A DNA stretch of 37,551 nt from a virus: positions 1-37,551 of the IMG/VR virus record IMGVR_UViG_3300001679_000003; one strand, 5' to 3'. Every line of letters starts with the position of its first letter. Within the stretch, counting starts at the first letter, position 1. Positions 2,896-31,055 of the stretch are shown one piece after another. Both the position numbers and the translations under genes were made by a program. The notes below the pieces were generated by a model. It saw only the letters and a list, made by a program, of their open reading frames with translations, had not been told where the DNA came from and did no database searches.

Positions 2896-3651
2896 ATGAG
2901 TGAAAACATTTTAGGATTGGATATAGTAATATCCCACAGTAAGAATTCAAAAGAATTAAGAAAAAAAGGTTACGCAGTATTGAGCGCAGACGGTGGCGCA
3001 TATACAGAATCTATAACCGTACCAACAATAAATATCTATAGTCTTAGATATGATTTAAAAGCGAAAGATTACCAAGCATCAACATTAGGGTTTAAATTTC
3101 AATTGTCTAAAAACAAGGTAAAGATACTAAACTTCTTTAAAGAGTTGGTTGAAGATTTTGGCGCACCGAAGATTGCCTTTGTAGGAAAGGGGGATAAATA
3201 CTGTTTTAGATTTTTGTTAGCAACGTATTTCCTAAACAGCATTGTTAAAGATGTTCATGGTGCGCATATAAAGTCAGTTAAATATATTGATGGTAGTTCA
3301 GATGATTTTGAATCAGTAGCATACACAAACCAATACTACGTACAGGCTATGGAAATGGAGGATAGTTACAACTATGCTGAGATTGTAGAGAAACTCCAAA
3401 CAGCATATTGGACTTTTGCCAAGACAATGCCGAATAATCCACACGAATACACTTTAAGAAAAAATTGGTACGGTGATTTCCCTAATTACGATTTTCTAAG
3501 GGTGGCAACATATTTGCGTATGTTCGGAGAGTTTGAAGAGTTTGGTGGCTCTATGTGGCGGATATTGAAAATAGGTAATTATAAATATTGGTGTTGTGCT
3601 TTTGACTATACAAACGATAAAGTAGATTTAATTAACAGAGCAAAATTATAG
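2896..3651 (+). CDS. Unknown phage protein with C-terminal 'TLR.NW...YKYW' domain
   Basis: This 251-residue protein is of unknown function. The last third (TMPNNPHEYTLRKNWYGDF, then FLRVATYLRMFGEFEEFGG, then LKIGNYKYW, ending LINRA) resembles a conserved domain I recall from many phages, often near methyltransferases. The N-terminal part starts with a strand (ILGLDIVIS) that could be an RNase H-like fold, but no catalytic set is clear. It has a 9-base gap to the SSB gene and an 8-base gap to the decarboxylase gene. It is likely part of the cassette 2896-7578. Confidence 0.6.
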   Translation: MSENILGLDIVISHSKNSKELRKKGYAVLSADGGAYTESITVPTINIYSLRYDLKAKDYQASTLGFKFQLSKNKVKILNFFKELVEDFGAPKIAFVGKGDKYCFRFLLATYFLNSIVKDVHGAHIKSVKYIDGSSDDFESVAYTNQYYVQAMEMEDSYNYAEIVEKLQTAYWTFAKTMPNNPHEYTLRKNWYGDFPNYDFLRVATYLRMFGEFEEFGGSMWRILKIGNYKYWCCAFDYTNDKVDLINRAKL

Positions 3652-3659
3652 GAGAATAA

Positions 3660-4037
3660 ATGAAACTAGGAAAGCATTTAATTATGGATTGTATTATTTC
3701 TGAAGAAGGAATCGAAGATTTGTACAATAAAGAAAAACTTAAAAATATAATTGAAGATGTAACAAAGTCAGTAGGTTTAAGACCGCTTTCAGACGTTATG
3801 CTTTATGAAGTAAACGATACACACACAGGAATAAAAGAAGATGTTGGCGTTACAGGAATGGTAATCTTCATGGAAAGCCACTTCAGTATTCACACGTTTC
3901 CAGAAAAGAAATACGCATCACTTGATATTTATTCTTGTAAAGACTTTGACCATTTACAAGTATGTGAATATATAAAAAAAGCATTAAGTGTATCAAAGTT
4001 AAATTCATCCGTTTTAGTTCGCGGAAACGATTTGTAA
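3660..4037 (+). CDS. speH: S-adenosylmethionine decarboxylase proenzyme (SpeD/SpeH, class 1B)
   Basis: This 125-residue protein has the signature MESHFSIHTFPE. Aligned by eye to the small bacterial/archaeal AdoMetDC, the self-cleavage site is Glu72-Ser73 (Ser becomes the pyruvoyl group), with His78 and Cys93 matching the catalytic His and Cys. All processing residues are present, so it should mature to alpha and beta chains. The family makes decarboxylated AdoMet, normally the aminopropyl donor for spermidine. No spermidine synthase gene is in this genome. The gene lies 9 bases before a methyltransferase gene, which makes a use of AdoMet other than host polyamine synthesis worth considering. 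Confidence 0.92.
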   Translation: MKLGKHLIMDCIISEEGIEDLYNKEKLKNIIEDVTKSVGLRPLSDVMLYEVNDTHTGIKEDVGVTGMVIFMESHFSIHTFPEKKYASLDIYSCKDFDHLQVCEYIKKALSVSKLNSSVLVRGNDL

Positions 4038-4046
4038 GGGCGTAGC

Positions 4047-4682
4047 ATGGAAAGTATAAAAAAGTTCGCTAAAGGCATAGTAAGGAATGGAGATTTCTAC
4101 AATCAGACAGAAATAGATGGATTGGTAGGAAATGTAAAGGCATCTATTTATTATTCAGACCCACCTTGGGGTGATGGCAATATCAAGTATTGGAATACAA
4201 TGAATAAGAAAATGAACGCAGGAAAGGATGTGGAAGATGTTGAGTGTTTTAGTTATACAGATTTCTTAGATAGGGTTTTAACGTATGCGACTAAATATAC
4301 AGATGGTTGGGTGGTTATTGAATATGGGAAAAGATGGAACGACAATCTAATTGAAATGGCTAAGAAAAAAGGGTTACATTATTGTGGAACAGTGGAAACA
4401 CTGTATAGCGGTAAACTTCCATTAGATGTTAATTTCTTTAGAACAGATAGGGTTATGACTGTGCCAAACACCGAAGATATTTACCATACTAAGGATAATA
4501 GAACAGTTCAAGTTATATTTGATACATTGTTTGAAGGGCAGGATATGACAGGTAAATGGGGAATGGACTTATGTTGTGGTCTAGGACTAACCGCAAAGGC
4601 TTGTTTATCGCATAATATGAGTTTTGTTGGTAATGAATTAAACGAAACAAGAATACAGAAAACGTACAACAGGTTTAAATAA
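4047..4682 (+). CDS. DPPW-type methyltransferase, probably DNA adenine/cytosine N-methylase
   Basis: In this 211-residue Rossmann-type enzyme the catalytic motif DPPW (residues 38-41) precedes the AdoMet-binding motif I (MDLCCGLGLTA, about 173-183). That circularly permuted order is typical of beta-class amino-methylases, and DPPW marks enzymes acting on exocyclic amino groups. There is no large target-recognition domain, so specificity may be short or supplied by a partner. The start is 9 bases after speH, and the TAA overlaps the next ATG by one base. The actual donor could be AdoMet or, speculatively, decarboxylated AdoMet. Methylation of another substrate is possible. Confidence 0.78.
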   Translation: MESIKKFAKGIVRNGDFYNQTEIDGLVGNVKASIYYSDPPWGDGNIKYWNTMNKKMNAGKDVEDVECFSYTDFLDRVLTYATKYTDGWVVIEYGKRWNDNLIEMAKKKGLHYCGTVETLYSGKLPLDVNFFRTDRVMTVPNTEDIYHTKDNRTVQVIFDTLFEGQDMTGKWGMDLCCGLGLTAKACLSHNMSFVGNELNETRIQKTYNRFK

Positions 4683-5875
4683 TGAGCGATAAGAAGAATA
4701 TTAACAATGTACGGATATATAAGAAAGAGTCTGTATTAGAAGAGGCGTTAGACCGATTTGAGTTTTTGTTTGAAGAGTTTGACAGGGTTATCGTTAATAT
4801 ATCTGGTGGCAAAGACTCAACGATTGTTTTGGAGTTGGCTTTATCTGTGGCTCGTAAATTAAACCGCCTACCACTTGAGGTTATGTTTTTCGACCAAGAG
4901 GCTGAGATTATGTCAGTTATCGAATACATCAGAAATATACAAGCAAGAGAAGAGGTTAAGTTTCATTGGTATCAAATACCTATAACCATTAATACAAGTG
5001 CCAGTATTTCAGAACAAAGTGTCGTTTGTTGGGATAAAGATAAAGAGGACATTTGGGTTAGGGAAAAGGAAAAGGAAAGCATTAAAGAGAATGTTTATTA
5101 TCCTATGGATACATACTTTAACAAGTGCTTTAATTTCATTGCTGAGAAAGACTTTGTCGGCAATGATGGTAAGAGTTGTATGGTGGGCGGTGTTAGAGCA
5201 GAAGAAAGTGTAATTAGAATGGCTTATCTGTCTAAGGGAAATGTTTACAAAGGGGTTACTTGGGGCAAAAATACTAGCAAGAATACAGGCAAAGGCAGGT
5301 ATGTTTTTTATCCTATTTATGATTGGAGTTATACCGATGTTTGGAAATATATTTATGAAAATCAGATAGAGTATGCTGATTACTATAATTTAATGTTTAT
5401 GAAGAAAGTTGCAATTCCAGATATGAGGGTGTCTTGTGTATTCCACGAGAATAGCGTTAAAGCATTAGAGTATTTGTCAGAATATGAGCCGGATAATTGG
5501 AACAAAATATCAGCACGAATTGTAGGTGCGAACACTTATAAAACCCTCAAGGGCGAAAGTTATACAAGACCAAAAAAGTTGCCTTATATGTTCAATACAT
5601 GGAGAGATTATTTTTTACATCTTTTAGTTACAGTTATTGAAGGGGAAGAACTTAAAGAAAAGTATGTTGGGATGGGTATGACATTAGAAAACTATATAAG
5701 ACGAAAGGCTTTAATGTTTACAACAGAACAAAACCGTATTGAAGAAGATGTAGAATATGGTTGGCAGATAGGGGTAAGCACCTTACTAAAGAATGATTAT
5801 TGTGGAACGCTTATGTCTAATTTCAAGGTTAAGATTTTGCCTTGGTTGGCTAATAAATACGAGGATAGTAAATGA
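4682..5875 (+). CDS. PP-loop ATPase, PAPS reductase/IbrA-like
   Basis: This 397-residue protein has the PP-loop SGGKDS at residues 41-46, followed by the helix TIVLELAL. It also has a GGVRAEES box near the middle and an RVSC motif, as in PAPS reductase-like proteins of the IbrA/DUF3440 group. PP-loop enzymes adenylate a substrate before sulfur or nitrogen transfer; related DndC does this in DNA phosphorothioation. It is far longer than a metabolic PAPS reductase and its next gene is an IbrB-like ParB protein, the classic pairing. Its substrate is unknown. It starts on the last base of the methyltransferase stop and overlaps the ParB gene by 4 bases. Confidence 0.85.
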   Translation: MSDKKNINNVRIYKKESVLEEALDRFEFLFEEFDRVIVNISGGKDSTIVLELALSVARKLNRLPLEVMFFDQEAEIMSVIEYIRNIQAREEVKFHWYQIPITINTSASISEQSVVCWDKDKEDIWVREKEKESIKENVYYPMDTYFNKCFNFIAEKDFVGNDGKSCMVGGVRAEESVIRMAYLSKGNVYKGVTWGKNTSKNTGKGRYVFYPIYDWSYTDVWKYIYENQIEYADYYNLMFMKKVAIPDMRVSCVFHENSVKALEYLSEYEPDNWNKISARIVGANTYKTLKGESYTRPKKLPYMFNTWRDYFLHLLVTVIEGEELKEKYVGMGMTLENYIRRKALMFTTEQNRIEEDVEYGWQIGVSTLLKNDYCGTLMSNFKVKILPWLANKYEDSK

Positions 5876-6519
5876 AAAATGAAATAAAGAAAATTATTAA
5901 AGACTCGGAATTAGATGATGCGGAAGTAAGAGTTTTACTTACTGAATTAATAAGAGAGTTATCGCCTTATGGAAGTCAGCCTGTTGATTGTATTGAATGG
6001 GTTGATATTAACGATGTTGAGGCTAACGATTATAATCCGAATAGTGTTGCCAAGAAAGAAATGGAATTGTTATACAGGTCTATCAAGAAAGACGGTTACA
6101 CACAGCCAGTAGTTACATTCTACGATAAAGAAAGAAAAAAATATATTATTGTTGATGGATTCCATAGAAGTTCAGTCTTGCGCTCAAGAACGGATATTCG
6201 TGAAAGGACTAATGGTATGTTGCCTGTAGTAGTTATTGAAAAATCAGTAGAAGAAAGATACGCATCAACAATAAGACACAATAGGGCTAGAGGTACACAC
6301 TCTGTTACATCTATGACTTCTGTTGTATTTGGTATGAAAGAAAAAGGATTGAGTGATACCGAAGTAGCAAATGAATTAGGAATGGAAGATGAAGAGATTG
6401 TAAGGTTGACGCATATTGGTGGTTTCTCTGCTTTGTTTAAAGATGCCGAGTATTCTAGTAGTTGGGCTACTTACGGTCAGTTAATGGAAAAGAAGAGGTA
6501 TTTAGAAGATGGAGATTAA
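5872..6519 (+). CDS. ParB/Srx-fold protein, IbrB-like (first of three)
   Basis: In this 215-residue protein the ParB N-terminal domain spans about residues 40-140: VDINDVEANDYNPN, then IKKDGYTQPVV, then the GxxR loop DGFHR (95-99), followed by the IbrB-type box HNRARGTHS (136-144). A helical HTH-like part follows (about 150-190). The ParB fold binds nucleotide and DNA, and some members are nucleases or ATPases. Pairing with a PP-loop protein is the known ibrAB arrangement, where the E. coli genes affect expression of immunoglobulin-binding proteins. No ParA is present, so partition is unlikely. Confidence 0.85.
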   Translation: MKNEIKKIIKDSELDDAEVRVLLTELIRELSPYGSQPVDCIEWVDINDVEANDYNPNSVAKKEMELLYRSIKKDGYTQPVVTFYDKERKKYIIVDGFHRSSVLRSRTDIRERTNGMLPVVVIEKSVEERYASTIRHNRARGTHSVTSMTSVVFGMKEKGLSDTEVANELGMEDEEIVRLTHIGGFSALFKDAEYSSSWATYGQLMEKKRYLEDGD

Positions 6520-7090
6520 ACAATTATCAACAGATAGCATTACAGGCTATGAAAAGAACTATAGAACGACTACAGAAAAAGGTGTTGAGGCATTAAAGCG
6601 TTCTATTGACTCAGTTGGGTTTGTTGTACCTATTGTCATAGATAAAGATAATGTCATAATATCAGGACACCTAAGACTTGCGGTTGCTAAAGAAATAGGC
6701 ATGGAAGAAGTGCCTTGCGTATTAGCGGATAATCTCACAGACAAACAAGTTAAGAAGTTACGGTATCTTGATAATGAGGTTCATAGGTTATCTAAATGGG
6801 ATGACGCGCTTTTAGCCGATGAAAAAAGATGGTTAGAGTTAATGTCAAAAGATGACGGATGGGAATTCATTAGTAATTTGTTTGGTGAGTCCGTATTAAA
6901 TAACTATAAGATTGATGACATTATTGTTACATCAGACAGTATTTTAAAAAAACAATCTGATATGCAAAAACAATTTACTGAGAGAGCAACCGCAAAAACA
7001 ATAACAACAGAAAGAAATGTTGGTGGTAAGTTAGTTGCTCAACATATATGTCCTAATTGCAATAAAGAAGTATTTACAGGAATAAAATGA
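6509..7090 (+). CDS. ParB/Srx-fold protein (second of three)
   Basis: In this 193-residue protein the ParB N-terminal domain covers about residues 1-110, with KNYRT, the helix EALKRSIDSVGFVVPIVI and the GxxR loop SGHLR (52-56), followed by VPCVLADNLTDKQ. This resembles the ParB domains found ahead of phage DNA methylases. The tail carries one CxxC pair (Cys181, Cys184), half a zinc ribbon. It overlaps the first ParB gene by 11 bases and the third by 4. Distinct sequence suggests an old divergence, not a recent duplication. Confidence 0.83.
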   Translation: MEIKQLSTDSITGYEKNYRTTTEKGVEALKRSIDSVGFVVPIVIDKDNVIISGHLRLAVAKEIGMEEVPCVLADNLTDKQVKKLRYLDNEVHRLSKWDDALLADEKRWLELMSKDDGWEFISNLFGESVLNNYKIDDIIVTSDSILKKQSDMQKQFTERATAKTITTERNVGGKLVAQHICPNCNKEVFTGIK

Positions 7091-7578
7091 TAACAAACAT
7101 AAATGCTTTAGATATAGTTCCGTATGGGAAAAACCCTAGATTAAACGGAAAGACAGTAATAGCACTAAAGGCGATTATAGAAGAGTATGGTTTTTTAGTA
7201 CCATTGACTGTAACTAAAGATTACACGATAATAACAGGACACTCAAGATATGAGGCAGGTCTTGGTTTAGGAATGACAGAGTTCCCTTGTATTGTTTTAG
7301 ATATATCAGAAGATAAGTCTAGGGAGTATAGACTTGTAGATAACAAGATACAAGAATATAGCATTACAGATTATATTAAATCGGAACAAGAGTTAATATC
7401 TATAAGTGGTGGCGATGAATTCTTTAAAGCGATGTTTAATATAGGAGAATTAACAAAGGATGATGTTATATTAAATAAAGGCATAATAGAGCCTATTGTT
7501 GAAGATAAGGAAGAAGATTCAAAGGTTGAACTTTTGTGTCCTTATTGTTACCATCAATGGACGGAAATAGACACTTAA
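7087..7578 (+). CDS. ParB/Srx-fold protein (third of three)
   Basis: In this 163-residue protein the ParB-like domain has GKNPRLN near residues 14-20, EEYGFLVPLTV, the GxxR loop GHSR (51-54) and FPCIVLDISEDK. Like its neighbour it ends with a CxxC pair (Cys151, Cys154) in a short tail (CPYCYHQW). It is coupled by ATGA to the second ParB gene. It is the last cassette gene before the terminase pair, so these ParB proteins may contact packaged DNA or help the terminase. That is inference from position. Confidence 0.8.
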   Translation: MITNINALDIVPYGKNPRLNGKTVIALKAIIEEYGFLVPLTVTKDYTIITGHSRYEAGLGLGMTEFPCIVLDISEDKSREYRLVDNKIQEYSITDYIKSEQELISISGGDEFFKAMFNIGELTKDDVILNKGIIEPIVEDKEEDSKVELLCPYCYHQWTEIDT

Positions 7579-7610: not shown

Positions 7611-7958
7611 ATGAGTAAACAGTTAAATAAGACCAAGATAGCAAAAGAGGCTATGATAAGCGCATTAGAGGCTAATTTAGGCGTTGTTACTATATCGGCT
7701 AACGCTTGTGGCGTGTCGAGAAAAACGCATTATATGTGGCTAAATAAAGACTCTCAGTACAAAGAAGAAGTTGAAAGTATTAGAGGTATCGCAATAGATT
7801 TTGTAGAAACTAAACTTTTTAATAGAATTAAAAATGATGATACAACTTCAATAATCTTTTATTTAAAGACTCAAGGAAGGAACAGGGGTTACGTTGAACG
7901 ACAAGAGATGGATATTGATGGTAGTATGAATCTATCTGTTGAGTTCGTAGAGCCTTGA
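7611..7958 (+). CDS. terS: Terminase small subunit
   Basis: In this 115-residue protein residues about 10-40 form an HTH (KEAMISALEANLG, then ISANACGVSRKTHYMW), followed by a long oligomerisation helix and DDTTSIIFYLKTQGRNRGY, a segment seen in many small terminases of PBSX/Terminase_3 systems. The protein recognises the packaging site and regulates the large subunit. The ATG at 7611 follows CGGAG. It overlaps terL in a TTGA junction. Any pac site is likely in or near this gene but I cannot pinpoint it. Confidence 0.88.
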   Translation: MSKQLNKTKIAKEAMISALEANLGVVTISANACGVSRKTHYMWLNKDSQYKEEVESIRGIAIDFVETKLFNRIKNDDTTSIIFYLKTQGRNRGYVERQEMDIDGSMNLSVEFVEP

Positions 7959-9160
7959 AGAAAAAGCCTAGTGTACAGATACCAAATAAATTCAAGCCCT
8001 TGTGGAAACCAAAAAGATACAAGGTTTATTATGGTGGTAGGGGTGCAGGTAAATCATGGAGTTTTGCACTAACACTTTTACTTATGGGGGTGAAGAAGCC
8101 CAAACGAGTATTATGTACTCGTGAAGTACAAGGCTCAATGAAGCAATCAGTACACAAGTTGTTATCCATGTGTATTGATAATCTAAAATTAGGTAATTTC
8201 TATAGAATCACTAGAGAGGGAATATACGGCAGGAATGGAACAGAGTTTATATTCTATGGATTAAAGCACGACCCAATGCAAATCAAGTCTCTTGAAGGTG
8301 TGGATATATGTTGGGTGGAAGAGGCGCAGAAGATTAGTAATGAGTCTTGGGATATTCTAATACCAACTATCCGTAAAGACGGTTCTGAGATATGGGTATC
8401 ATTTAACCCGAACTTAGAGTCAGACCCAACTTATGTAAAGTATGTAGTGAATGAGCAAAGGGATAACTCATTGATTGTTAAAGTAAATTACTGGGATAAT
8501 CCTTTTTTCAGTAATGAACTACAAGAAGAATTAGAATATCAGAAGGAATTAGATTACGATGATTACTTGCATATTTGGGAAGGGCATTGTAAAACAGCAT
8601 CAGACTCACAGATATTTAGAAATAAGTTTGTGGTTGAGGACTTTATTTCACCGGAAAATGTTGTATTCTTTTTTGGTTTAGACTGGGGTTTCTCACAAGA
8701 CCCTACAGCAGTAATGAGGTGTTTTATCATAGATAATGACTTATATATTGATTACGAATGTGGCGGTACACAGGTAGAGTTGGATAGCACTTATAAACTA
8801 ATTGATGCCATACCAGAATCAAAAAGATATACAATACGAGCAGACTCAGCGAGACCTGAGTCGATTAGTTTTGTTAAAAGGCAAGGTTATAGAATAGAAG
8901 CAGTACACAAATGGGCAGGTAGTGTAGAGGATGGAATAGAACATATTAGAAGTTTCAAAAAGGTTCATATTCATACCCGATGTATGGAAACAGCAAGTGA
9001 GTTTGTGAAATACAGTTATAAGGTTGATAGAGTCACCGGAGATATATTGCCTCAAATAGTAGACGCCCACAATCATTATATAGATGCGCTAAGATATGCA
9101 TTACAACCAATGATTAAGCAGTTGGGTAAACCTAAATTAGCACGAGTAATAGGAGTATAG
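7955..9160 (+). CDS. terL: Terminase large subunit (Terminase_3/PBSX type)
   Basis: In this 401-residue packaging motor and nuclease the ATPase domain has Walker A GGRGAGKS (27-34), a Walker B-like VDICWVEEA (116-124) and a coupling SFNP (149-152). The C-terminal RNase H-fold nuclease has acidic residues in GLDWGFSQD (Asp243), RADSARPE (Asp297) and YIDALRYA (Asp377). The start is a TTG at 7955 overlapping the terS stop; no ATG or GTG fits upstream of Walker A. This implies translation coupled to terS. It cuts concatemers and pumps DNA through the portal. Confidence 0.95.
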   Translation: MKKKPSVQIPNKFKPLWKPKRYKVYYGGRGAGKSWSFALTLLLMGVKKPKRVLCTREVQGSMKQSVHKLLSMCIDNLKLGNFYRITREGIYGRNGTEFIFYGLKHDPMQIKSLEGVDICWVEEAQKISNESWDILIPTIRKDGSEIWVSFNPNLESDPTYVKYVVNEQRDNSLIVKVNYWDNPFFSNELQEELEYQKELDYDDYLHIWEGHCKTASDSQIFRNKFVVEDFISPENVVFFFGLDWGFSQDPTAVMRCFIIDNDLYIDYECGGTQVELDSTYKLIDAIPESKRYTIRADSARPESISFVKRQGYRIEAVHKWAGSVEDGIEHIRSFKKVHIHTRCMETASEFVKYSYKVDRVTGDILPQIVDAHNHYIDALRYALQPMIKQLGKPKLARVIGV

Positions 9161-27148: not shown

Positions 27149-27618
27149 AGACTTTTGTAGAAGTAAATCATGGTTTTGTTCGTTGTGTTTTAGAGGGTGT
27201 AGATAATCCACCCTACGGAATGGTTGGTGTTGAATTTGTAGATATTACAGATTTACCCGACCCGCCTAAAGTTGGTTGGTTGTATGATGCAGGGTCTCAA
27301 GAGTTTTCCCCAAATCCTTATGGAGCAGACCCGTACCATCCTGAAATGATAGAAGAGGCTTGGAGATTAGTAAGAAATTCAAGAGGGGTCATGTTAAATA
27401 TGAGTGATTACACTCAGATGCCAGACTTCCCCAACTGGATTTTGAAAAGAAAGTATAAGATATACAGACAGTCCTTACGCGACCTGCCTATTTTTTTTGA
27501 TGACCCTTATACAGTGGAATACCCTGCTGAACCCAAAATATCTAATTTGACAACAATAGAGAGGTTATGGCTTGTTTGGAATGAATTTAGAGAATCGCGT
27601 ATTAGAAGTAGAGGATAG
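27142..27618 (+). CDS. Tail assembly chaperone for fibre/adhesin (Phage_tail_APC-like)
   Basis: In this 158-residue protein the middle part, LNMSDYTQMPDFPN then YKIYRQSLRDLPIFFDDPYTV and EYPAEP, matches the phage tail fibre assembly chaperone family. The start is TTG at 27142, overlapping the adhesin stop; no ATG occurs until about residue 26, so TTG is the best choice. Coupling to the adhesin gene suggests it helps fold that protein. Confidence 0.8.
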   Translation: MVKTFVEVNHGFVRCVLEGVDNPPYGMVGVEFVDITDLPDPPKVGWLYDAGSQEFSPNPYGADPYHPEMIEEAWRLVRNSRGVMLNMSDYTQMPDFPNWILKRKYKIYRQSLRDLPIFFDDPYTVEYPAEPKISNLTTIERLWLVWNEFRESRIRSRG

Positions 27619-28117
27619 TAAGGTCAACTTCTGTCAACAGGAGTTTATATTCGATTTTTGTAAAAACAGTAAGTACACTTTTGGTCATTCTTCTAGTACG
27701 AACTCTTCTGATATGAGTAGGTTTGTTTGTAATTTAACTAATGAAGAATTTAAACAACTTGAATTAAGTGATATACTAGACGATATTGCCGATAAGCATG
27801 GATTAGGTAATATCGAAATATTAAGGTCATACATTAATGTATATAACATGACAACACATCTTAGCGCACACTCTGACGACCAACAGGATGATACGTTCAC
27901 ATTCTTATATTACGCTAATCCTACTTGGCATCCTGATTGGGGAGGGGAAACAGTTTTTTATGACGCAAAACAAGAAGAAATTATAAAATCCGTTATACCA
28001 AAAGCAGGTCGTATATCTGTGTTTACCTCTACTATTCCACACGCATCAAGACCGCCCACAATATCCGCACAACAACAAAAATTTACTGTCGCTATTAAAG
28101 CAAGGAAACTTAAATGA
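27581..28117 (+). CDS. 2OG-Fe(II) oxygenase 1 (prolyl 4-hydroxylase-like)
   Basis: In this 178-residue protein a double-stranded beta-helix domain has the iron triad His97-x-Asp99 (SAHSDD) and His154 (IPHASRPP), and Lys167 as likely 2-oxoglutarate anchor; GGETVFYD lies between. This matches phage P4H-like oxygenases. I prefer ATG 27581 to 27572 on alignment length. It overlaps the chaperone gene by 38 bases and the next oxygenase by 4. Substrate unknown; hydroxylation of a virion or host protein, or of DNA, is possible. Confidence 0.85.
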   Translation: MNLENRVLEVEDSKVNFCQQEFIFDFCKNSKYTFGHSSSTNSSDMSRFVCNLTNEEFKQLELSDILDDIADKHGLGNIEILRSYINVYNMTTHLSAHSDDQQDDTFTFLYYANPTWHPDWGGETVFYDAKQEEIIKSVIPKAGRISVFTSTIPHASRPPTISAQQQKFTVAIKARKLK

Positions 28118-28701
28118 CTGAAAGTTATAATGAGTTCATAGGAATTTACGCTGATTGTGTACCTAAAAAACTGTGTAAAGAGATTATCGATGCTCATACT
28201 AAAATGGCATTAAAAGGTAATGCGTGGGCAGGTTCTACAGGTTCGGGAGTAGATAAGACTATAAAGAACTCCACTGATGTAGATATAAGTAGATTTACAA
28301 AGTTTGATAGTCTAGTACAGAATGTCAACTCACACTTACAAGAGGCTTATGACTTATATAGAGATAAGTATTTTTATGTTGATAGTTTACAACCGCATAA
28401 AATAAGCACTTATCAAGTACAAAAGTATTCTAAGGATGAGAAGTCTGGGTACTTTAACTTTCATTGTGAAGCGAATAATATGCAAACCGCCCACCGTGCT
28501 ATGGTTTATATGGTTTACTTAAATGACATAGCGGAGGGAGGCGAGACAGAATTTATTTACCAAAATGCCCGAATACAACCCAAACAAGGTACAGTAGTTT
28601 ATTTTCCTCCATCTTGGACACATACTCATAGGGGCAATCCTGTATTCTCTAATCAAGATAAGTATATTATGACAGGATGGTTAGAGTACGGCTGTGGGTA
28701 A
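28114..28701 (+). CDS. 2OG-Fe(II) oxygenase 2 with HxE iron motif
   Basis: This 195-residue protein has a P4H-like fold with YFNFHCEANN giving His117-x-Glu119 where Asp is usual, then GGETEFIY, then THTHRGNPV with the distal His172, and Lys183 in DKYIMTGW as cosubstrate anchor. Such a Glu variant is known in some members, so the enzyme may still bind iron. ATGA overlap with oxygenase 1. The two differ clearly in sequence, so they are not a recent duplicate. Confidence 0.83.
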   Translation: MTESYNEFIGIYADCVPKKLCKEIIDAHTKMALKGNAWAGSTGSGVDKTIKNSTDVDISRFTKFDSLVQNVNSHLQEAYDLYRDKYFYVDSLQPHKISTYQVQKYSKDEKSGYFNFHCEANNMQTAHRAMVYMVYLNDIAEGGETEFIYQNARIQPKQGTVVYFPPSWTHTHRGNPVFSNQDKYIMTGWLEYGCG

Positions 28702-30444: not shown

Positions 30445-30714
30445 TCATTTCTTCGTATAGGTGGCTTTCTTACCTTTGACTACCGTTTCTATGTCTTGAC
30501 TGTATTTATGCCTTAGACGGCTTATAACGGAACGTAGATGCTTAATTCCGTATAACTTCTTGGCTTGTTCTGCGGTAAGTGTTCTACCCTTCTTTAAATG
30601 TTCAATAACAGTATTACATTCACCTGTTACAGAGCAGTCCTCTTTTTGTTTACATTTATAGACCCAATATGCACCACCTAGTACGATACCTGTTACGAGT
30701 ATTTCACCTATCAT
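30445..30714 (-). CDS. Membrane-anchored HTH protein (HTH_39-like)
   Basis: I chose the ATG at 30714 over 30759 because it makes the operon's usual ATGA overlap and follows GAGAGGGG. The 89 residues begin MIGEILVTGIVLGGAYWVY, a single membrane helix, then a cysteine-containing stretch and, from about residue 33, TVIEHLKKGRTLTAEQAKKL then LRSVISRLRHKY, the pattern of HTH_39 domains. A DNA-binding domain on a membrane anchor is unusual. It could regulate, or tether DNA to the membrane. Confidence 0.6.
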   Translation of the reverse strand: MIGEILVTGIVLGGAYWVYKCKQKEDCSVTGECNTVIEHLKKGRTLTAEQAKKLYGIKHLRSVISRLRHKYSQDIETVVKGKKATYTKK

Positions 30715-31055
30715 TTTATTCCCCTCTCTATTAAAAATTCTATTACATCCGCGACACAATATACAACGCCCACCTCACCACCACATTTCTTTATAGTGTT
30801 AATCATTAATTTCTGATTAGGACTTAACCTTCCCTTTGGGGTTGTAGTATGTGGCTTTTTAACTTCAAGGCCGTAGTACATCCCATCGTGAATAATGGTT
30901 ATGTCTGGCACACCGGATTTAACGCCTTCGGCTTTAAGTTTCTTTGCTGTGATTATATTTCTATTTCCACCATTAGGAACAGCCCACCAACACAAACCCC
31001 GCAAGTCTAAATATTGGGCTATAGATTTTTGTATCTCATGTTCGTGTTCGTTCAT
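30711..31055 (-). CDS. VRR-NUC domain nuclease
   Basis: In this 114-residue protein the PD-(D/E)XK core has GVPDITI (Asp51), LEVKKP (Glu64 and Lys66) and the following GRLSPNQKLMINTIKKCGGEVGVVYCV helix-strand. Standalone VRR-NUC proteins are structure-specific or Holliday-type nucleases in phages. Unusually it lies in the repressor transcript, not with the recombination genes. ATGA overlaps on both sides. Confidence 0.9.
   Translation of the reverse strand: MNEHEHEIQKSIAQYLDLRGLCWWAVPNGGNRNIITAKKLKAEGVKSGVPDITIIHDGMYYGLEVKKPHTTTPKGRLSPNQKLMINTIKKCGGEVGVVYCVADVIEFLIERGIK

Follow-up and report, generated by a model that had tools for sequence, protein, structure and literature searches.

A phage gene cassette that joins an IbrA/IbrB-like pair to a SpeD-family decarboxylase: a candidate system for DNA base hypermodification

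IbrA and IbrB, a PP-loop ATPase and a ParB-fold protein, are encoded by adjacent and overlapping genes in Escherichia phage PhiR5_2 and in Flavobacterium phages, and are widespread in phages. The annotation given to the pair in E. coli is co-activation of the expression of prophage genes. In this contribution, we describe a locus that contains an adjacent and overlapping pair of this type, genes D and E, and adds to it gene A, a SpeD-family decarboxylase (B), a DPPW methyltransferase (C) and two more ParB-fold proteins (F and G). The locus lies in a stretch of viral DNA of 37,551 nucleotides (IMG/VR record IMGVR_UViG_3300001679_000003, positions 1 to 37,551), hereafter called the window. On balance, we find it probable that this cassette serves the phage for hypermodification of its DNA bases and has an IbrA/IbrB pair as its core, with the product of gene B most likely supplying an amine building block. 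The functional assignments throughout are computational.

Parts of this arrangement are known from other systems. The CmoA/CmoX pair of Synechococcus phage S-B43 is a published precedent for the use of an altered S-adenosylmethionine (SAM, AdoMet) on DNA (PMC12783734). The CmoA/CmoX/CmoY system resembles the window in that a SAM-altering enzyme has a DNA alkyltransferase and a ligase dependent on ATP as its neighbours, often with ParB-domain proteins nearby; CmoX, however, is a C5-cytosine enzyme that uses carboxy-SAM, whereas the altered SAM of the window would be decarboxylated AdoMet (dcAdoMet) and its transferase is only a candidate, gene B adjoining gene C with no site change seen in C. 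Phages also carry AdoMet, arginine and ornithine decarboxylases (AdoMetDC, ADC and ODC) of the SpeD family, to which gene B belongs, and the papers that describe them place them in polyamine metabolism (PMC9992855, PMC10407285), whereas in the loci described here they adjoin modification proteins or are fused to them. The Dnd system (DndB/DndC) likewise combines a PP-loop enzyme resembling PAPS reductase with a ParB-superfamily protein, but the window's D is without the conserved cluster cysteines. As for base modifiers of the Mu Mom/GNAT type, related loci carry a GNAT module, one of them with a weak Mom match (E 0.05), but there is no GNAT among the cassette genes of the window. A first-pass annotation of the window had held the combination to be undescribed as one system, and neither such a description nor any report of DNA aminopropylation or of an AdoMetDC in an IbrA/IbrB cassette was found in the literature searched, which was mostly without subscription papers and preprints.

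Genes A to G form one tightly packed operon of same-strand open reading frames (ORFs) at 2896-7578 (+), each at most 9 bases apart from the next or overlapping it, as the first-pass annotation had described (A-B 8, B-C 9, C-D -1, D-E -4, E-F -11 and F-G -4 bases; Table 1). The small terminase subunit gene (TerS) starts 32 bases after G, and the cassette thus ends directly before the terminase genes.

To place the cassette among its relatives, IMG/VR was scanned with alignments of gene A and of gene E, and all ORFs in the loci were then searched with profiles. The ORFs of the compared loci (L numbers below) were called by a simple script, some contigs and many of the E-scan loci are incomplete, and repeated sampling of related phages inflates locus counts; the 80 loci per collection scan are the best matches, and the fractions below are not population frequencies. 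The C-terminal domain of gene A (A-CTD), D and E are found together in 47 of 55 A-scan loci and in 55 of 80 E-scan loci, about 100 loci, in a recurrent layout that runs A-CTD, variable module or modules, D, E, TerS and large terminase subunit (TerL), with optional ParB genes corresponding to F ahead of the A-CTD and to G after E. The exchangeable modules are the DPPW methyltransferase C, GNAT, glycosyltransferase-like, Methyltransf_24, SET, class I methyltransferase and SpeD-family decarboxylase. Judging from these profiles, the recurrent unit is a core of A-CTD, D and E with interchangeable modules. The decarboxylase is present in 12 of the 55 complete E-scan loci, as well as in L099, L140 and the window group, and in every cassette locus that carries one, except L219, it is fused to the A-CTD or lies within 70 nucleotides of it. 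A-CTD, D and E accompany it throughout; C does so in some loci only and is missing from L099, L165, L174 and L217. As far as gene neighbourhoods can tell, the decarboxylase is tied to the A-CTD rather than to the methyltransferase.

The proposal that the seven genes are one system therefore holds for a core that recurs with modules but not for the full set, which is rare, being found in the window and in three contigs (L002/L005, L003/L006 and L004/L007). IMGVR 3300024518_000969 has the same order of A to G, TerS and TerL, and IMGVR 3300009378_000487 and 3300008952_001341 share that of A to G and TerS. The gene upstream of A differs between contigs (SSB-like or RusA-like), and the preservation of the A to G order next to a varying neighbour must be more than chance. 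The dN/dS ratios point to purifying selection on the cassette genes wherever they could be computed. The synonymous distance to L005 is only 0.06-0.27 for D to G, while for A, B, C and TerL it is about 1 or saturated, and therefore D to G were probably exchanged recently as one block. The cassette DNA had no match in a search of named-phage DNA, and tblastn with proteins A and C found nothing in 50,697 phage records; gene D matches 215 phage records.

The A-CTD is a domain of ~95 residues with the motif W.FAKTMP..PHEYTLR...YKYW...LINR. It is nameless in Pfam, and gene A as a whole has no match in Pfam, NCBIfam or PADLOC; its sole PHROG match, to a 'holin' family (E 3e-4), is weak and uninformative. 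The structural model of gene A (mean predicted local distance difference test score, pLDDT, 79.5) gave no confident match to the PDB with Foldseek, and its best VIA-align Z of 5.8 lies inside the range of common arrangements. In BFVD, gene A matched A0A516LRX9 (93 aa, E 1.5e-7), which, judged on its length, looks like a free-standing A-CTD. In other phages the domain stands alone or is fused to methyltransferase, SET, GNAT or SpeD-like domains: SpeD fusions are present in three contigs (L140, L203 and L207, the last matching PF02675), SET fusions in two (L165 matches PF00856, E 2e-9), a class I methyltransferase fusion in L108, and a GNAT fusion, recognised by eye without a Pfam match, in L192. 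Because it is fused or adjoined to such varied modifying enzymes, the A-CTD looks like an adaptor or a shared substrate-binding domain. For the N-terminal domain of A, to which no fold could be assigned, a DUF488 identity was set aside as a weak lead, a match being obtained for one homologue (L316, DUF488-N3a, E 0.068) and none for the window. The same domain was considered and rejected as an obligate partner of B: B is also found beside short A-CTD proteins, and full-length A is found without B in flavobacterial genomes. Full-length homologues of A in Polaribacter, Flavobacterium and Tenacibaculum (L316-L319) are without D, E or a decarboxylase nearby, and in L316 and L318 they directly precede a terminase-small-subunit-like gene.

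Gene B matches PF02675 (AdoMet_dc, E 2e-22) above the cut-off, and its alignment shows no variation at the pyruvoyl-forming Ser73 or at the catalytic His78 and Cys93. It carries the motif ESHFSIHTFPE, whose ESH and HTFPE parts are also present in the verified AdoMetDC of phage P2559S; the HTFPE part includes the proline that separates AdoMetDC from ADC, the marked residue being deduced from the text of PMC10407285. On the SpeD tree, the B of the window groups with L099, L173, L178, L179, L196 and L217, and the cassette-linked decarboxylases fall in three branches (AdoMetDC-like, ADC-like and ODC-like). By this phylogeny, the recruitment of decarboxylases to the cassette system spans three branches of the SpeD family. 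The ADC-like enzymes (L207, L203, L140 and L210), among them the fused enzyme of the L207 type, are ~48% identical to that of pelagiphage HTVC201P, a proven arginine decarboxylase (PMC9992855), whose gene sits among nucleotide-metabolism genes outside any modification cassette. Tandem pairs of SpeD-family genes occur in phage loci L029, L034, L037, L041, L043 and L049, and in those that were aligned (L029, L037, L041 and L049) one member is AdoMetDC-like (ESH..HTWPE) and the other ODC-like (IETS...). On a human-gut contig (L014:1606-3273), a 555-aa ORF appears from its sequence to join a DPPY aminopropyltransferase of the BpsA type to an AdoMetDC domain.

The first-pass annotation had also read C as an amino-methylase fold with DPPW ahead of motif I, D as a PP-loop enzyme, E, F and G as ParB-fold proteins, and D with E as a pair of the IbrA/IbrB type, and all of this was borne out. 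In gene C, for which there is no Pfam match, DPPW precedes motif I (DLCCGLG, in the context DLCCGLGLT), and its confident AlphaFold model (pLDDT 92) finds its matches among the beta-class DNA methyltransferases of the N6A/N4C type (M1.HpyAVI, E 7e-9; CcrM; M.BceJIV); a profile search also places it nearest the DNA amino-methyltransferases. The protein has no obvious extra domain for target recognition, which may be supplied by the ParB proteins, and it keeps the ordinary G(L/M/I)G form of motif I. Gene D matches both PF01507 and PF11922/DUF3440 above cut-off, contains SGGKDST, and overlaps the gene for the ParB-fold protein E. The PHROG matches of E, F and G to ParB-fold proteins are strong; with Pfam ParB_N, G alone of the three passes the cut-off, and in PADLOC a 'type II MTase' model is matched by F and G over its first ~120 positions.

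If the cassette does modify DNA, its components might act as follows. The ParB-fold proteins would hold the enzymes on phage DNA, and the A-CTD would dock a module onto the core. The product of B would make a decarboxylated, amine-bearing building block (dcAdoMet if it is a true AdoMetDC), D would use ATP to activate either the acceptor or the donor, allowing the amine to be attached to the base, and C would alkylate or methylate an exocyclic amine. The adjacent terminase would then package the modified DNA, which would be shielded from host nucleases. In tRNA, the enzymes TilS, which is a PP-loop protein, and TiaS attach lysine or agmatine to a cytosine, and amine coupling centred on D would roughly resemble them in its logic. 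Since the constant partners of the decarboxylase are A-CTD, D and E, while C occurs in some loci only, we prefer, with modest confidence, coupling centred on D over transfer by C. Provided that B serves modification at all, the former would be the leading possibility without commanding a majority, aminopropyl transfer by C a lesser one, and some other chemistry the least probable.

The first-pass annotation had proposed a nucleic-acid modification cassette of the IbrA/IbrB type with a decarboxylase, and this is still the best reading, being supported by the preserved A to G order, the joint travel of A-CTD, D and E with modules, the SpeD fusions, the recruitment from three branches and the absence from the window of any member of the spermidine synthase family. 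Several observations weigh against it. The majority of the core loci are without a decarboxylase, and in phages neither a ParB-fold gene nor a place next to terminase is unusual, since both are often found for other reasons. By profile, D resembles PAPS reductase rather than TilS, and the likeness to TilS and TiaS is not one of homology. Gene B scores 72.4 bits against the NCBIfam AdoMetDC equivalog TIGR03330, just below the cut-off of 75.65, its clade is sister to one made of ODC-like (L165, L174) and ADC-like (L207, L203, L140, L210) enzymes, and in the B of L005 methionine replaces the window's glutamate after HTFP. Because of the score and the sister clade, AdoMet is the probable but not the certain substrate of B; the processing of AdoMet that had been claimed for B thus stands as regards the intact residues and the AdoMetDC motifs, but not as a settled specificity.

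A link between AdoMetDC and phage DNA modification can also be seen in a different phage family. In phages ZRG1 and P2559S, the gene of a ParB-methyltransferase, a single polypeptide, overlaps an AdoMetDC gene, and a scan with this enzyme family gave 56 nonredundant loci, in 44 of which AdoMetDC follows directly downstream (45 with ZRG1, which simple ORF calling missed). The pairs, known from ZRG1, P2559S and about 50 nonredundant IMG/VR loci, are often next to terminase. As with B and C of the window, the decarboxylase stands directly beside a DNA amino-methyltransferase-like enzyme, but the latter contains a ParB domain, has FAGD(T/S)VFG and CPPY motifs and is accompanied by neither a PP-loop protein nor an A-CTD. 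For control, another scan took as its starting point relatives that lack AdoMetDC (Listeria B054, Enterococcus phiFL3A, Funu2, HCTV-2 and prophiGD43A-5), and loci L008, L009, L027, L068 and L232-L310 were compared with L357-L443. AdoMetDC lies within 1 kb in 53 of 57 cases with the acidic motif I FAGD(T/S)VFG and in 0 of 67 with non-acidic forms (FAGGSVRG in 62 of the 67). Fisher's test gives p about 1e-30 without a correction for relatedness. The acidic sequences make up what is essentially a single clade, and this is therefore one switch kept over deep divergence and not many independent events. An acidic residue occupies the matching place of GGG(D/E)G(G/A) in the dcAdoMet-binding region of aminopropyltransferases (PMC11107197). 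We infer that the change of motif I consists of G to D, which would bind the aminopropyl amine, and R to F, by which the carboxylate partner would be lost, and the FAGD(T/S)VFG ParB-methyltransferases are predicted to be DNA aminopropyltransferases. The prediction is a sharp one: decarboxylated SAM should be the substrate of these enzymes and SAM that of the FAGGSVRG enzymes, and in phages like ZRG1 or P2559S an aminopropylated base would be expected in the DNA. The C of the window does not belong to this family (DPPW, DLCCGLGLT, no fused ParB domain), and thus the pairs support a general link of AdoMetDC to phage DNA modification but say nothing on the chemistry of C itself.

Other explanations of the cassette have to be considered. 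The adjacency of B and C could mean that C is a DNA aminopropyltransferase which uses dcAdoMet from B to produce N6-aminopropyl-adenine or N4-aminopropyl-cytosine, with D and E acting elsewhere. Aminopropyltransferases of the BpsA type share the DPPY amino-alkylating logic, the L014 protein joins such a DPPY enzyme to a SpeD domain, and the ParB-methyltransferases are phage enzymes of the same broad fold paired with AdoMetDC. However, motif I of C is of the ordinary kind, most C homologues have no decarboxylase nearby, four loci with a decarboxylase have no C, and among 40 C sequences no residue separates those with B from those without it. An AdoMetDC-dependent C was accordingly rejected as weak on sequence grounds, the pairing of the two enzymes implied by the first-pass annotation is weak, and we regard this explanation as unlikely, if less so than the ones that follow. 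Gene B could also have an auxiliary role in polyamine metabolism, raising spermidine for the packaging of DNA, and lie beside the cassette by chance, as many phages carry AdoMetDC, ADC or ODC of the SpeD family, several of them active (PMC9992855), and most of the sampled AdoMetDC loci are outside modification cassettes. Chance does not agree well with a decarboxylase fused to or adjoining the A-CTD in nearly all decarboxylase-bearing relatives and recruited from three branches, nor does spermidine production with a window free of spermidine synthases, and we consider this role rather more doubtful.

It is improbable that the target of the cassette during infection is RNA (tRNA or mRNA) instead of DNA. 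PP-loop ligases and decarboxylated amines do serve tRNA modification elsewhere, as with TilS and TiaS, but C matches DNA amino-methyltransferases best, three ParB-fold proteins are present, and the cassettes are frequently next to terminase. Slightly less probable again is that D and E mainly regulate gene expression, as the co-activator annotation of IbrA/IbrB would suggest; this would leave the enzyme modules unexplained, and a regulatory effect could itself stem from DNA modification. The least credible is that D performs sulfur chemistry and that the cassette makes phosphorothioate or thio-bases like Dnd, whose DndB and DndC are a similar couple. The PADLOC matches of D to DndC, BrxP and SspD are weak and partial, and a test against the curated DndC family TIGR03183 failed (41.3 bits, cut-off 290.4). 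DndC needs a cysteine that binds its Fe-S cluster, C280 being essential (PMC11662687), whereas no cysteine reaches 95% conservation across 87 D sequences (the best is found in 58 of 87), which disfavours DndC-like chemistry, and searches of the cassette proteins with Pfam, PADLOC and NCBIfam revealed neither a DndD-like protein nor a cysteine desulfurase as a partner.

Base hypermodification by the cassette and the ParB-methyltransferase pairs may be parts of one picture. Tentatively, and with somewhat less assurance than we attach to the cassette alone, we suggest that phages use SpeD-family decarboxylases to make amine-bearing DNA bases: the cassette of the window would couple a decarboxylated amine to DNA through the IbrA/IbrB/A-CTD machine, and the separate ParB-methyltransferase family would have switched from SAM to decarboxylated SAM and would aminopropylate DNA. 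The IbrA/IbrB pair thereby gains a list of partners that points to base hypermodification of the amine type, and for some of the SpeD-family genes that phages carry, at present assigned to polyamine metabolism, a new role is offered.

Table 1. Genes of the cassette and the terminase genes that bound it (window coordinates)
Feature	Length	Position	Strand	Assignment
Gene A	251 aa	2896..3651	+	N-terminal domain ~1-150, C-terminal domain (A-CTD) ~155-251
Gene B	125 aa	3660..4037	+	Class 1b SpeD-family pyruvoyl decarboxylase, AdoMetDC-like
Gene C	211 aa	4047..4682	+	Beta-class DNA amino-methyltransferase fold, motif IV DPPW ahead of motif I
Gene D	397 aa	4682..5875	+	PP-loop ATPase, PAPS reductase/DUF3440 type (IbrA-like), SGGKDST
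Gene E	215 aa	5872..6519	+	ParB-fold (IbrB-like), IVDGFHR motif
Gene F	193 aa	6509..7090	+	ParB-fold, C-terminal CPNC zinc-ribbon-like motif
Gene G	163 aa	7087..7578	+	ParB-fold, C-terminal CPYC zinc-ribbon-like motif
Terminase small subunit (TerS)		7611..7958	+	Cassette boundary, outside cassette
Terminase large subunit (TerL)		7955..9160	+	Cassette boundary, outside cassette

The nearest named relatives of TerL are those of Nitratiruptor phages NrS-1/2/3 (52%), and a homologue of gene A is present in a Campylobacterota metagenome-assembled genome (L315); the host of the phage may therefore be a marine campylobacterote. Elsewhere in the window, two adjacent 2-oxoglutarate-Fe(II) oxygenases (PF13640) lie at 27572-28701, close to where the structural gene region ends, and an ORF with a VRR-NUC nuclease domain is found on the minus strand at 30711-31055.

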